Source: Sorangiineae bacterium NIC37A_2 (GTDB lineage Bacteria > Myxococcota_A > Polyangia > Polyangiales > Polyangiaceae). Taken from it: a DNA stretch of 38,538 nt. The first letter of the stretch is position 1, and each line of letters opens with the position of its first letter. The DNA lies in the NCBI GenBank assembly GCA_002085155.1, contig NASX01000033.1, forward strand, positions 14,241-52,778. Reading direction: 5' to 3'. The translations under genes and the position numbers were made by a program. The notes below the pieces were generated by a model. That model made no database searches. It had not been told where the DNA came from and worked only from the letters and a program-made list of their open reading frames with translations. This document shows positions 32,689-38,288 of this stretch, piece after piece.

Positions 32689-32762
32689 GCCTCCGTAGCT
32701 CAGTAGGATAGAGCAGCGGCTTCCTAAGCCGAAGGTCACACGTTCGAATCGTGTCGGGGGCG
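32689..32762 (+). tRNA. tRNA-Arg(CCT), integration target of the downstream element
   Basis: The 74-nt cloverleaf has acceptor GCCTCCG/CGGGGGC with one T-G wobble, D-arm GCTCAGTAGGATAGAGC, anticodon loop TTCCTAA, variable AGGTC, and T-arm ACACGTTCGAATCGTGT. Anticodon CCT reads the rare Arg codon AGG. The outer anticodon-stem pair is G-A. Immediately upstream, GCCCCCG (32683-32689) would pair perfectly with the 3' acceptor strand. CCA is not encoded. An integrase gene follows in the same direction. Confidence 0.95.
32735..32762 (+). other. Probable attachment site (attL core) at the tRNA-Arg 3' end
   Basis: The T-arm and acceptor 3' end of tRNA-Arg(CCT) border the integrase-bearing element and would form the shared core. 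The exact core length and the matching right-hand repeat cannot be fixed, since no copy was seen near the right edge of the window. Confidence 0.5.
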
Positions 32763-32807
32763 CAAAACATCAAAGCCTGACGAAGCTGCAAAAGCGCGTC
32801 GCACGGA

Positions 32808-32968: not shown

Positions 32969-33181
32969 GTGCTTGTGTCACCGGATAAAGCCCAGGAGGT
33001 GGTGGGCATGCTGCGCCAACTCGCAGACGCTCTCGAGGCCCAGCATGAACAGGCACCTTCAGAACCAAAGCCCAGGCGGCGCCCGGCACGCCGGGTCGGC
33101 GTTGCGGGTGACGAGACCGCCGCATCACCCGAGGACCGAAAGCTGGCGAGGGAGGCCTTGGAGAGAGCGGGGATTCTGTGA
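32969..33181 (+). CDS. Small basic protein preceding the integrase (possible excisionase or accessory factor)
   Basis: Start set at GTG 32969 because GGAG (32958-32961) lies seven bases upstream; an in-frame GTG at 32912 has no such site. The 70-aa product (MLVSPDKAQEVVGMLRQLADALEAQ...) has a short amphipathic helix, a basic Pro/Arg cluster (EPKPRRRPARRVG), and a C-terminal helix (SPEDRKLAREALERAGIL). It shows no classical helix-turn-helix. The stop overlaps the integrase GTG as GTGA, so both are co-translated. Its place between attL and the integrase suggests a recombination accessory role, but the family was not recognised. Confidence 0.55.
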   Translation: MLVSPDKAQEVVGMLRQLADALEAQHEQAPSEPKPRRRPARRVGVAGDETAASPEDRKLAREALERAGIL

Positions 33182-34386
33182 CCTCCTGGAGGCCTTCACC
33201 CGCAGGAAACCGTCCATCGACGAGCGTACAGCCCCAGGGCTTTGACGTAGTCCGGGGCGTGAAGGCCAAGGACGCAAAGACCCGGGAATTTTCAGCTGCG
33301 GGCCCTGGCGTGCAGCGAATCAGCGGACCAAACGGCACGCGTTATCGCATACGGTTCGCGACAGCGGCCGGCCGTAAGTCACTGACAACCAGCTCGCTGG
33401 ATGAAGCTCTCCGCATCCGGAATGCCGTTCTGGTCGAACTCGCAGCGGGTAACATGGCAGCCGCCGGGGGCATTACGATACGAGCCTACTCTCAAGAAAT
33501 TCTGGACCGTCGGGAGGCCAATGGTTACCGAAACGGCAGGACTGATCGGGGGCGTATCAAGAAGTACGTCCTACGTACTCACTACGCAGACTGGCCGCTT
33601 CGCGCTTTCTCCAGGAAGCATGCCGTCAGGTGGGTAAGGTGGCTCGGAACGCACCCCATCAAGAGGCAGACTCGGATCCATTGTGTGAACATGATGCGGG
33701 TCATCTTTGGCGAGGCGCTCAACGATGGGCTCGTGGACGAGAATCCACTGGTTGGGGTCCGCGTTCAGGGCGCAGACCCGAGGACCGAGTCGACCTGGAC
33801 CGTGCTGAGCCTGCCCGAACAGCTTCGGCTAGTCTCCGGTATTGATACGCCCGAAAAATGGATCGTGGCAGTCGCGGAAACAAGCGGACTTCGACAGGGA
33901 GAGCTTTGGGGGTTGGAGCTGTCTGATGTCCATCTGGATGCGGACGTCCCCTACATCACCGTGAGATACGGTGCTCCAGGCAGAAAGCCGACGAAATCAG
34001 GATCGATTCGGGACGTTCCGCTGATTGGGATCGGACTTGAAGGAATGAGGGAGTGGATGGCTATCCGGGACCAATGGTGCCACCGACCTCGATTGACTGA
34101 ACTTGTTTTTCCTCTGCAAAAAGGGTCCGCGCGAGACCGAAAGGCCCCACGTAATTTCCGGCGCTGGTTGAGTGATGCCGGGATTCATCGACGTGTGCGC
34201 TGGCACGATCTGCGGCACACGGCGGCGAGTTCCCTGATCTCAGGCGATTGGGGTCGCGCTTGGTCGCTCGAGGAGGTTCGGGAGATGTTGGGGCATGCGG
34301 ACATTCGCACAACCCAGCGCTATGCTCATTTTGCCAGAAAGGCCCTGTTCCGGGCAGCCGAGGAGACAAATGCCATCCACACCTAA
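33178..34386 (+). CDS. Tyrosine recombinase/integrase
   Basis: The GTG at 33178 overlaps the preceding stop as GTGA. The 402-aa protein has an AP2-like/arm-binding region near GTRYRIRFATAAGRKSL, a SAM-like core-binding region (ITIRAYSQEILDRREANG ... HAVRWVRWLGTHPIKRQT), and a complete catalytic domain. The expected residues are all visible: Arg in TSGLRQGELWGL, Lys in KPTKSGSIRDVPL, HxxR in HDLRHTAASSL, His in LGHADIRTTQ, and the nucleophilic Tyr in RYAHFARK. It should catalyse site-specific integration of the element, evidently at tRNA-Arg. The coding sequence is uninterrupted, so the element may still be mobile. Base composition is slightly less GC-rich than the flanking chromosome. Confidence 0.95.
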   Translation: MTSWRPSPAGNRPSTSVQPQGFDVVRGVKAKDAKTREFSAAGPGVQRISGPNGTRYRIRFATAAGRKSLTTSSLDEALRIRNAVLVELAAGNMAAAGGITIRAYSQEILDRREANGYRNGRTDRGRIKKYVLRTHYADWPLRAFSRKHAVRWVRWLGTHPIKRQTRIHCVNMMRVIFGEALNDGLVDENPLVGVRVQGADPRTESTWTVLSLPEQLRLVSGIDTPEKWIVAVAETSGLRQGELWGLELSDVHLDADVPYITVRYGAPGRKPTKSGSIRDVPLIGIGLEGMREWMAIRDQWCHRPRLTELVFPLQKGSARDRKAPRNFRRWLSDAGIHRRVRWHDLRHTAASSLISGDWGRAWSLEEVREMLGHADIRTTQRYAHFARKALFRAAEETNAIHT

Positions 34387-34823: not shown

Positions 34824-34870
34824 GGCCCCTGATGGGTATCCAACGCGGCGACGCCGCAGAAAGGTACCCA

Positions 34871-35431
34871 ATGTCACACATTCCCGAGATTCTTGCGGCG
34901 GACCGCGAAGTTCCCGACAGCACCATCGAGGTCACCCTCGTTCCCGAACGCGAAACGGCACAGCCGGAAGAGATCGCGTCGTTCGAGCGCCGTTCAGCAA
35001 ACTTAGAATCGCTCATTCGAGACGAGTTTTCAGCTGAGGGTCTCGCTCCATCAGATGACTTCGTGGGCCGGCTCGTCGGCGGTCGCATGGCGAGACGAGG
35101 ACGTTCTCGGTTCCTCGAGCACGGGAGTACAGTTTGTCACCCCGCCCGTGTGAACTTCTTTGGAGACCGCGAGATGGCGACCATCTTGGCGGACGGCTTG
35201 AAAGCGATTCGCGACGACGGTGGACGTGCTGGCGCTGCCAAACGCTATCAACAACTGATCGACAACTCTGACAACCCCGGCGAAGCCGTGGCCGCCAAGG
35301 TTCGAGAAAGGATCAAGCAGATCCGCTGGGCAATGGCCGCCGCGTTGAACGAGCAGGTGCGTCGCGAAGCCATCGAGAGTGGCAACGACCCTGAGGCAGC
35401 AACCTACTTTAAGGTGACGAGCAATGACTGA
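34871..35431 (+). CDS. Uncharacterised protein of the integrative element
   Basis: The ATG at 34871 was preferred over 34832 because GAAAGG lies about eight bases upstream. The 186-aa product was not recognised. It starts MSHIPEILAADREVPDSTIE, has an acidic first half with a conserved-looking segment LESLIRDEFSAEGLAPSDDF, a basic GGRMARRGRSRFLEHG, a segment HPARVNFFGDREMATILADG, and a helical C-terminal half rich in charged residues (RERIKQIRWAMAAALNEQVRR). There is no signal peptide or transmembrane segment. It overlaps the TOPRIM gene by 8 bases, so it may be a replication accessory or regulator made together with the primase. Confidence 0.7.
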   Translation: MSHIPEILAADREVPDSTIEVTLVPERETAQPEEIASFERRSANLESLIRDEFSAEGLAPSDDFVGRLVGGRMARRGRSRFLEHGSTVCHPARVNFFGDREMATILADGLKAIRDDGGRAGAAKRYQQLIDNSDNPGEAVAAKVRERIKQIRWAMAAALNEQVRREAIESGNDPEAATYFKVTSND

Positions 35432-36029
35432 TCCCCAACGGCTTGACCGACGGCTCCCCACCCTGCCGGAGAAAGAGAACTTGGTCCCCACCAAACCGAC
35501 CGTTGCACCAGACGCTCCGGACACACCGGATTTGGCGACCACACCGGACACAGGAGGACCTCCGAGCGAACCCAGCACTAGCACGGACGATCATCTTATC
35601 GACCGGGCCCTGGAGGGACCCGCCCCGCCCGCCCTGCGCGACTACACGGCGGACCAACTCCAAACATTCTCCGACCGCGGAATTCCTGTGGAACGCGCGC
35701 GGCACTATCGCATTTCGTCAGTCACACCCGAAGAGACAAGCCTGGCTTTGGGGTGGCGGATCAGGTCCTCTGCTCTGCGCATGCCGGTCCCGAGAAACGA
35801 CGAGGCGTCGCCCCGGTATCGCATCGACTATCCGGACGAGAATACCCCCCGATACCTGGTCGCCGCAGGCGTCAAGACACATCCGTTCGTGACCGACCTC
35901 GCCCATGATGCAAAGGCAGGTGACGTGCTGGTTGTCACTGAGGCCCCCTTGAAAGCGATCGCTCTGGAGACTGTCGGCATCAGGGCGATTGGCGCCGCAG
36001 GGGTTTGGGCGGGGTGGCGCGACTCCTAA
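35424..36029 (+). CDS. Primase-helicase, N-terminal part: TOPRIM (DUF3854-like) cut by an in-frame TAA
   Basis: The ATG overlaps the upstream gene by 8 bases. The 201-aa product has a Pro/Thr-rich N-terminus (~1-60), a segment DYTADQLQTFSDRGIPVERARHYRI (read as a helical region), RIDYPDENTPRYLVAAGVKTH, and the first half of a TOPRIM fold: VLVVTEAPLKAIALETVG with the catalytic-type Glu173, then AIGAAGVWAGWRDS. It stops at TAA 36027-36029. The same reading frame continues without another stop to 38288, and its first residues supply the Asp-x-Asp half of the fold. The gene is therefore one 955-codon frame with a single premature stop, or two genes needing read-through or reinitiation. Sequencing error is a further option. 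Confidence 0.8.
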   Translation: MTDPQRLDRRLPTLPEKENLVPTKPTVAPDAPDTPDLATTPDTGGPPSEPSTSTDDHLIDRALEGPAPPALRDYTADQLQTFSDRGIPVERARHYRISSVTPEETSLALGWRIRSSALRMPVPRNDEASPRYRIDYPDENTPRYLVAAGVKTHPFVTDLAHDAKAGDVLVVTEAPLKAIALETVGIRAIGAAGVWAGWRDS

Positions 36030-36035
36030 ACGCAC

Positions 36036-38288
36036 TTGCTACACCCAGACCTTCAGTCGGCGGTACAGAAAAGGTGCGAATTCGTCCTCTTGTTCGATTC
36101 GGACTGCTGGCTCAACAACAACGTGGCTCTGGCCATTGCGACTCTGGCTGCGCAACTACGCCAATCGGACGCCGCTTCGGTTCGATTGGCCCTGCTTCCG
36201 CACGCTCGTGACGGGAGCAAACGAGGACCCGACGACGCCTTGGTCCAGGACGGCTTCGAGGCACTCCAGGCACTGATCGACGACGCCGTTCCTTCCGACC
36301 CAATAGAATGGCTGGACACCGTTCCCGAGAGCCTCAAGGCCGTAGCTTTGCTCCGCAGTCTCCCCTTCCTGGCCTCTCTCCATCTTCTTGATGAACCCGA
36401 GTTCGATCTTCTGGTCGCGAGCTTTCGCAAGCACAAGATCCGCGTTCAAAATGTTCGTGACGCCAGGGCGGACTTCCGCAAGAAACTTGCTGCGAAGGCT
36501 CGACAGGGAACCCCCGTCCAAGATCCGCCTCGCTATGGGTTCGACAAGGTAGGGCGGAACTGCGTCATCTGCACCGAAGGCGATACGGGCAGCACCACCT
36601 ACGAACCCTTGTCCAACGTCGGCGCCAAAGTAGTGAGGGAGGAGATCCACGATGACGGCGCCGTTCAGTCACGCATCTTTGTGCTCGAAGGACAACTCGA
36701 AGACGGCACGGCGCTACCGCTTGCCGAAGTTCCCGCCGCGGACTTTTCACGAATGGACTGGGTCTACTCGAGCTGGGGGGCCCGTGCGGCCATTGTCGCC
36801 GGGTCCATGCCTAGGGAGCAGTTCCGCGAGTCCATCCAACTTTTGTCCCGTCCCGAAGTAACCACGGTGTACGGTCATACTGGTTGGCGGGAGATCGACG
36901 GTGAACCAAGCTTCCTTTTCCATGGAGGTGCAATTGGGGATCAAAGCCTTTCCGTGCGCCTCAGCGGATTCATGGAACGCTTCGTCCTGCCGTGTCACGC
37001 GTCCAAGGAACCTCTCGGAGGGGTAGAGCTCGTCTTCCAGCTGCTAGAAGTTGCTCCCCACGAAGTTACGATCCCCCTCGTCAGCGCTGCGTTTCTCGCA
37101 CCGCTCGCTTCGATCGTCTCGCCAGATTTCGCGCTGTGGCTGGTCGGCCCGACTGGCAGCTTGAAGTCAGAGATGGCGAGTCTGGCGGCCTCCTTTTTTG
37201 GCTCGTTCACGCGCCTCACAATGGGGAGCTGGTCCTCGACCGAGAACGCACTCGAGGCCCAAATGTTCGAGGCCAAGGACGTCGTCTTCGTCATCGACGA
37301 CTACGCTCCGCAACCCTCTCCCCGGGCGCGCGCGATTCTTCAAGAGAAGGCCGCGAGAACGATTCGCGGCATGGGGAACGGGTCTTCCAGAAGTCGACTT
37401 CGAGCAGATCTCACTCAGCGTCCCAATCGACCGCCACGCTGCTTGCTTATTTGCACTGGCGAAGAAATGCCTGTGGGAGCTTCGATCTTGGCACGTCTCG
37501 TTCGAATCGATTTAGACCGTGCCTCCATCGATCTGGCCAAGCTAACGGCCGTTCAGAACCAGCGTCAGCGATTGCCGGGAGTCATGGCGGACTACATTCA
37601 CCATCTTCGCCATGACCATCCCCGACTGAAAGACGAACTTCCTGAACGCAAGGTGGCTCGACGCGCGCGGTTCGTGACCCTTGGGGGGCACATGCGGCAG
37701 CCCGAGGCCTTGGCGATGCTCTCGTTGGGGTTCGAGTCTTTCCTCGAGTACGCACAGACTACGTTGGCAATCGGGCCGACTGAACGCGATGCCTGGATGG
37801 AGACCGCTGACAAAGCCCTTTGGCATCTCGGAGAAGGCAATGCGATTCGCATGCGGCAAGGTGATCCGGTGGCCGTCTTTCTGGACTCGCTTCGCGAACT
37901 CCTCGCCTCTGGCGCAGTCTGCCTGAAGCCTCACGGGATGGACTTGGATCTCTTCCCGGAACAGCATCCTATCGGCTGGCAGGATGACCTGCACGTCTAT
38001 CTGCTCATGCAGTTGGCTCACGAAGAGGTGAGCAAGTTGTGTCGCTCTGGCGGCACCTACTTCGGCACATCTGTCGATGCGCTCCGCCAATTGCTGTTCG
38101 ATGCCGGAATGTTGGTCCGACCACGGCGGGGCGACCGCCTGGAAGTTTCAGTCCGGGCCGGGTCGAAAACAATCCGGGTCACCAAGCTCATCAGCACGAA
38201 CCTGAATCTCCCAGCTTCGGACGCTGATGAAACGGCCCCGGAGCACAGTCCCGGTGGGGAAGCGGAGTTAGAGGACCTTCTCAACTAG
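36036..38288 (+). CDS. Primase-helicase, C-terminal part: TOPRIM end plus DUF927-like P-loop helicase
   Basis: This is the in-frame continuation after the TAA. The nearest start is TTG at 36036 with no Shine-Dalgarno; the next in-frame start is after the DSD motif. Of 750 aa, the beginning completes the TOPRIM domain (FVLLFDSDCWLNNNVALAIA; DSD at 21-23; later PDDAL). The middle matches DUF927-type helicases: PPRYGFDKVGRNCVI, VYGHTGWREIDGEPSFLFHG, Walker A GPTGSLKS (from 371), Walker B DVVFVIDDY (~415-423), and NRPPRCLLICTGEE (sensor region). The remainder holds helical regions and a C-terminal winged-helix-like part. It is likely the replication helicase of the element. Frame integrity after the stop argues that the break is recent or tolerated. 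Confidence 0.82.
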   Translation: MLHPDLQSAVQKRCEFVLLFDSDCWLNNNVALAIATLAAQLRQSDAASVRLALLPHARDGSKRGPDDALVQDGFEALQALIDDAVPSDPIEWLDTVPESLKAVALLRSLPFLASLHLLDEPEFDLLVASFRKHKIRVQNVRDARADFRKKLAAKARQGTPVQDPPRYGFDKVGRNCVICTEGDTGSTTYEPLSNVGAKVVREEIHDDGAVQSRIFVLEGQLEDGTALPLAEVPAADFSRMDWVYSSWGARAAIVAGSMPREQFRESIQLLSRPEVTTVYGHTGWREIDGEPSFLFHGGAIGDQSLSVRLSGFMERFVLPCHASKEPLGGVELVFQLLEVAPHEVTIPLVSAAFLAPLASIVSPDFALWLVGPTGSLKSEMASLAASFFGSFTRLTMGSWSSTENALEAQMFEAKDVVFVIDDYAPQPSPRARAILQEKAARTIRGMGNGSSRSRLRADLTQRPNRPPRCLLICTGEEMPVGASILARLVRIDLDRASIDLAKLTAVQNQRQRLPGVMADYIHHLRHDHPRLKDELPERKVARRARFVTLGGHMRQPEALAMLSLGFESFLEYAQTTLAIGPTERDAWMETADKALWHLGEGNAIRMRQGDPVAVFLDSLRELLASGAVCLKPHGMDLDLFPEQHPIGWQDDLHVYLLMQLAHEEVSKLCRSGGTYFGTSVDALRQLLFDAGMLVRPRRGDRLEVSVRAGSKTIRVTKLISTNLNLPASDADETAPEHSPGGEAELEDLLN

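Follow-up and report, generated by a model that had tools for sequence, protein, structure and literature searches.

An in-frame TAA codon interrupts a DUF3854-DUF927 primase-helicase gene on a genomic island of Sorangiineae bacterium NIC37A_2, probably as the result of a recent nonsense mutation

In the stretch of 38,538 nucleotides analysed here (the window, corresponding to C23:14241-52778), a long frame that reads as a primase-helicase gene is interrupted by an in-frame TAA. This raises the question whether the codon destroys the gene, is tolerated or bypassed during translation, or is missing from the true genome. An earlier note, which was made from the sequence alone, had named a fresh nonsense mutation, stop-codon read-through, reinitiation at a nearby TTG and an assembly error, and had chosen none of them. 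Our analysis best supports the fresh nonsense mutation, whereas read-through is unsupported and reinitiation is possible without precedent among the homologues.

The interrupted frame and the island around it

The frame contains one internal stop, compared to a mean of 28 and a minimum of 15 in composition shuffles of the same stretch (n = 300) and to 12-28 stops in each of the remaining five frames over 35424-38288. The GC content by codon position is 0.68/0.54/0.70 upstream of the TAA and 0.67/0.45/0.68 downstream. From the low stop count and from the GC pattern, which is alike on both sides, we conclude that the 5' and 3' pieces form one coding frame, which is not a single uninterrupted ORF. 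The reading frame is identical on either side of the TAA, which led us to reject a programmed frameshift. The coordinates of all features are summarized in Table 1.

Table 1. Features of the interrupted gene and of the island part located in the window.
Feature	Position	Strand	Remarks
tRNA-Arg(CCT)	32689..32763	+	integration target; no other CCT tRNA was found in the genome
attL	32717..32763	+	47-bp 3' part of the tRNA; exact repeat at C73:18829-18875 (attR)
Tyrosine integrase	33178..34386	+	intact frame
199-aa ORF	34832..35431	+	8-base overlap with the primase-helicase start; no family found
Primase-helicase frame	35424-38288	+	ATG start 35424, TAG end 38286-38288, 954 codons
5' piece of the primase-helicase gene	35424..36029	+	N-terminus of low complexity, followed by the DUF3854/TOPRIM-like domain up to its middle (includes Glu173); last codon is the TAA
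In-frame TAA, codon 202	36027..36029	+	falls between the Glu and Asp strands of the TOPRIM-like fold, in a loop that is variable and modelled with low confidence
3' piece	36030..38288	+	remaining half of DUF3854, including D225, and a helicase of the DUF927 type with Walker A/B
TTG	36036..36038	+	sole candidate reinitiation start near the TAA

DUF3854 scored 54.1 bits on the joined frame (Pfam cut-off 23) and 19 and 28.3 bits on the pieces taken apart; C-terminal to it, DUF927 scored 32.5 bits on the joined frame (cut-off 22.6). Family membership was defined as both domains scoring above the Pfam curated cut-offs within one frame, as they do here, and we read the gene as a broken member of the DUF3854 plus DUF927 family rather than as a separate family. 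The central claim of the earlier note, one gene cut once by the TAA, is thus confirmed by the frame itself, the shuffles, the GC pattern and Pfam. The same applies to its details: the catalytic Glu and the DxD motif of TOPRIM are present as E173 5' of the TAA and D225-S-D227 3' of it, with a spacing of 52 residues between E173 and D225 (about 50 had been stated), Walker A (GPTGSLKS) and Walker B (VIDDY) are found at residues 575 and 623, and the TTG indeed lies six bases past the TAA.

Residues 61-367 were modelled with the stop read as Gln (mean pLDDT 82.8). The TAA corresponds to model residue 142, in a loop of low model confidence (136-144) that is located between the Glu strand and the Asp strand. 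Foldseek searches with this first-domain model returned 7t8c as the best match (E 4e-4), as well as 6n9x and 1q57, with TM-scores of 0.29-0.44. The predicted fold resembles the TOPRIM primase region of both Twinkle and T7 gp4, however at about 14% identity over the domain and with only these modest TM-scores, and the helicase part of both is DnaB-like, whereas that of the window gene is DUF927/AAA-like. A profile match to the solved pathogenicity-island protein 8tch was weak (E 0.0036); profile matches to repeat proteins, which were about 30 residues long, were taken as chance.

The gene follows tRNA-Arg(CCT), a tyrosine integrase gene and a 199-residue ORF, in this order. With a tRNA target, an adjoining integrase and a direct att repeat at both ends, the locus has the features of a genomic island. 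The window end coincides with the end of contig C23, which stops 2.5 kb past the TAA; the last 250 bases of this contig gave no informative match, and the mobile element continues beyond the window onto another contig (C73). From the att repeat we infer that C23 and C73 belong to one island, and further matches to the 47-bp att sequence in the genome were located in other tRNA genes or were short chance matches. Inwards from attR, the right arm (C73:18876-27373; L065:963-5102 and the adjoining L064) encodes ubiquitin-like cargo in the form of an E2-E1-JAB fusion of 731 aa, an MBL-like protein of 383 aa with weak matches to metallo-beta-lactamase-type defence proteins, an HNH protein and a WYL regulator, all of them probably defence cargo, as well as one further ORF. 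The known island parts amount to about 14.3 kb, not counting the gap between C23 and C73. An empty-site comparison with both same-genus genomes revealed a close tRNA match with flanks that are not syntenic. In one of these genomes (L073, G001:C51), the kinase gene left of tRNA-Arg is located about 6 kb away and not adjacent to it, so that this spot is variable.

Homologues across the stop codon

Relatives of the protein were matched in 33 of the 318 genomes of the class, the own genome counted. The matches spanning the TAA position numbered 24, which represent 23 distinct homologues, because L028 and L077 are one and the same contig (identical in length, 68956, and in sequence); the set takes in two viral contigs and Polyangium fumosum. 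None of these homologues is interrupted. The earlier note had asked whether other genomes share the stop, which is not the case in any of the 23, and it would have given up its reading if the halves were normally separate genes in homologues, which all 23 contradict by being unsplit. As judged from these sequences, the halves of the primase-helicase are not normally separate genes. In the homologue alignment, the residue opposite the TAA is variable and at times a gap, and nothing is conserved there.

All 23 homologues share the Glu and the first Asp, whereas the second Asp of the DxD motif, which the window gene has, is kept in only 3 of them. The normal TOPRIM fold claimed earlier is therefore only partly right. 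Because both DxD aspartates are retained in so few homologues, primase activity across the DUF3854 family may be questioned, and it is not certain that the TOPRIM-like domain synthesizes primers in this family. At the positions that align with D225-S-D227, most DUF3854 relatives have DAG or DSN.

The highest identity, 43-44%, was reached by the match L026/L039 in the helicase part only; its N-terminus carries a TOPRIM of a different type. Scans of the genome-contig and viral-contig collections with the window protein gave no matches, and a DNA pattern in which the stop codon was left open retrieved no near-identical copies from the viral contigs. In the plasmid and phage collections, only distant helicase matches (25-31%) were found. 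Such distant helicase relatives occur on large Rhodococcus plasmids, where they are located about 8-12 kb from one record end and are annotated as 'telomere-binding protein'.

Explanations for the stop codon

We consider it likely that an island replication gene with DUF3854 and DUF927 domains has been cut by a single recent nonsense mutation. The earlier note had argued that more damage should be visible if the gene were decayed, which turned out to be a weak argument: random substitutions in this frame yield a second stop in about 3% of cases, so that after 20-30 substitutions the chance of seeing none is still 40-55%. The clean frame is thus a sign of a recent event and not of function. Against a loss by nonsense mutation it can be held that the helicase piece is undamaged and might still be produced in small amounts, and that there is no close homologue, the best reaching 44% in the helicase only.

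An assembly, sequencing or strain-mixture artefact, with a sense codon at 36027 in the true genome, is in our view unlikely. The draft assembly has the look of a metagenome bin (5.0 Mb in 150 contigs, 98% complete, 3% contamination), the contig ends shortly after the TAA, and the damage is confined to one codon, all of which would fit an artefact. However, not one internal stop was seen in 64 protein-kinase and 5 integrase domains of this assembly, and from these 69 stop-free domains we conclude that the assembly is not generally error-ridden.

About equally unlikely is a two-piece gene, in which translation would stop at the TAA and restart at TTG 36036, so that the halves rebuild the TOPRIM-like fold or the helicase works alone. 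The break falls into a predicted disordered loop, where a split would harm least, and TOPRIM catalysis may be dispensable given that 20 of the 23 homologues lack the second Asp of DxD. The proximity of the TTG to the stop would also suit this explanation, as would an SD-like sequence upstream, for which we calculated a duplex of -9.4 kcal/mol (best 5% of the background: -9.8). This sequence, GGGGTGG, is however located 18-24 nt upstream of the TTG and thus beyond the usual spacing, TTG is a weak start, none of the 23 distinct homologues is split at the TAA position, and half of the fold as a separate chain is without precedent in the family. Reinitiation would therefore be possible but weak.

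Programmed read-through or recoding of the stop codon, which would give the full-length protein and for which the single frame maintained on either side of the TAA could be cited, seems highly improbable and finds no support in the sequence, since the TAA has A as the next base, no stop anticodon or suppressor was present among the 45 tRNAs found (collected by Rfam search and then read by ARAGORN), no RNA structure was detected 3' of the TAA (z = +1.28), Rfam gave no match, all 23 distinct homologues do without a stop at this position, and TAA is an ordinary terminator here, for instance of the ArgJ and integrase genes.

Following a recent nonsense mutation, translation would end at codon 202 and leave a fragment of 201 residues, which would lack the second TOPRIM half as well as the helicase, and the island would be unable to make the normal primase-helicase. 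If this protein replicates the excised island, the island would now be immobilised, unless a further copy supplies the function in trans; a second copy of the primase-helicase was not found in the own genome. We thus infer a loss of primase-helicase function, by which the island may have become unable to replicate. Related helicases are known from the Rep proteins of SaPIs, which replicate other islands after excision (PMC10061031). The SaPI and SCC islands (Rep, Cch) resemble the present case in that an integrated island encodes a replication helicase of the DUF927 type, whereas their primases are separate or of the AEP/PolA type, and the window gene has a fused DUF3854 TOPRIM-like domain (PMC10061031). 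An apparent premature stop has also been described in an island polymerase of Niallia nealsonii, for which the authors left undecided between a recent mutation and a sequencing error (PMC10061031). There, too, one stop codon divides a replication gene of an island while the relatives of this gene are intact, but the protein family is another one, the stop is located near the N-terminus and a frame change is involved.

The island has thus likely lost its own replication gene recently, while integrase and cargo were kept, which is a plausible first step from a mobile island to fixed chromosomal cargo. The observation is true and its explanation most likely ordinary; isolated nonsense mutations like this one occur commonly, and the gene is a further example of them and not a new principle.

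Relatives fused to DNA polymerase A

Most full-length relatives are single ORFs of 1573-1699 aa. Such long single ORFs (L043-L048, L052 and L077, e.g. L044:7390-12417 and L046:2935-7737) come from genomes of this class, among them that of Polyangium fumosum. The two long relatives that were scanned both combine DUF3854 and a DUF927-type helicase with a C-terminal DNA polymerase A (PolA), and a 3'-5' exonuclease was recognisable in one of them. At L041:5585-10068, PolA is a separate gene, which shares a few bases with the 3' end of the primase-helicase gene; this two-gene arrangement could represent either a natural fission of the long form or the unfused state. The window gene has no C-terminal 3'-5' exonuclease or PolA, its frame ending after 954 codons, and no PolA gene is present on the known island parts, the between-contig gap lying outside the sequence covered. 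The sole PolA match in the genome is a frame of 940 codons on contig C63, a length that is usual for a chromosomal enzyme.

A comparable architecture is known from the OS3173 Pol of Aquificae viruses, a primase-helicase/DNA polymerase A polyprotein of 1606 aa, with which Pfprex of Plasmodium has been compared (PMC7689252). Like the window gene and its relatives, the OS3173-type polyproteins contain a DUF927 helicase with a primase-like N-terminus, and both there and in the relatives found here the 3'-5' exonuclease/PolA part is fused or separate; the window gene, in contrast, is without a PolA part and is interrupted by a stop. The homologue set is the more generally useful result, since it documents, on bacterial islands, single chains that unite a primase-like domain with a helicase, an exonuclease and DNA polymerase A. 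The long fused relatives also recall the apicoplast PREX.
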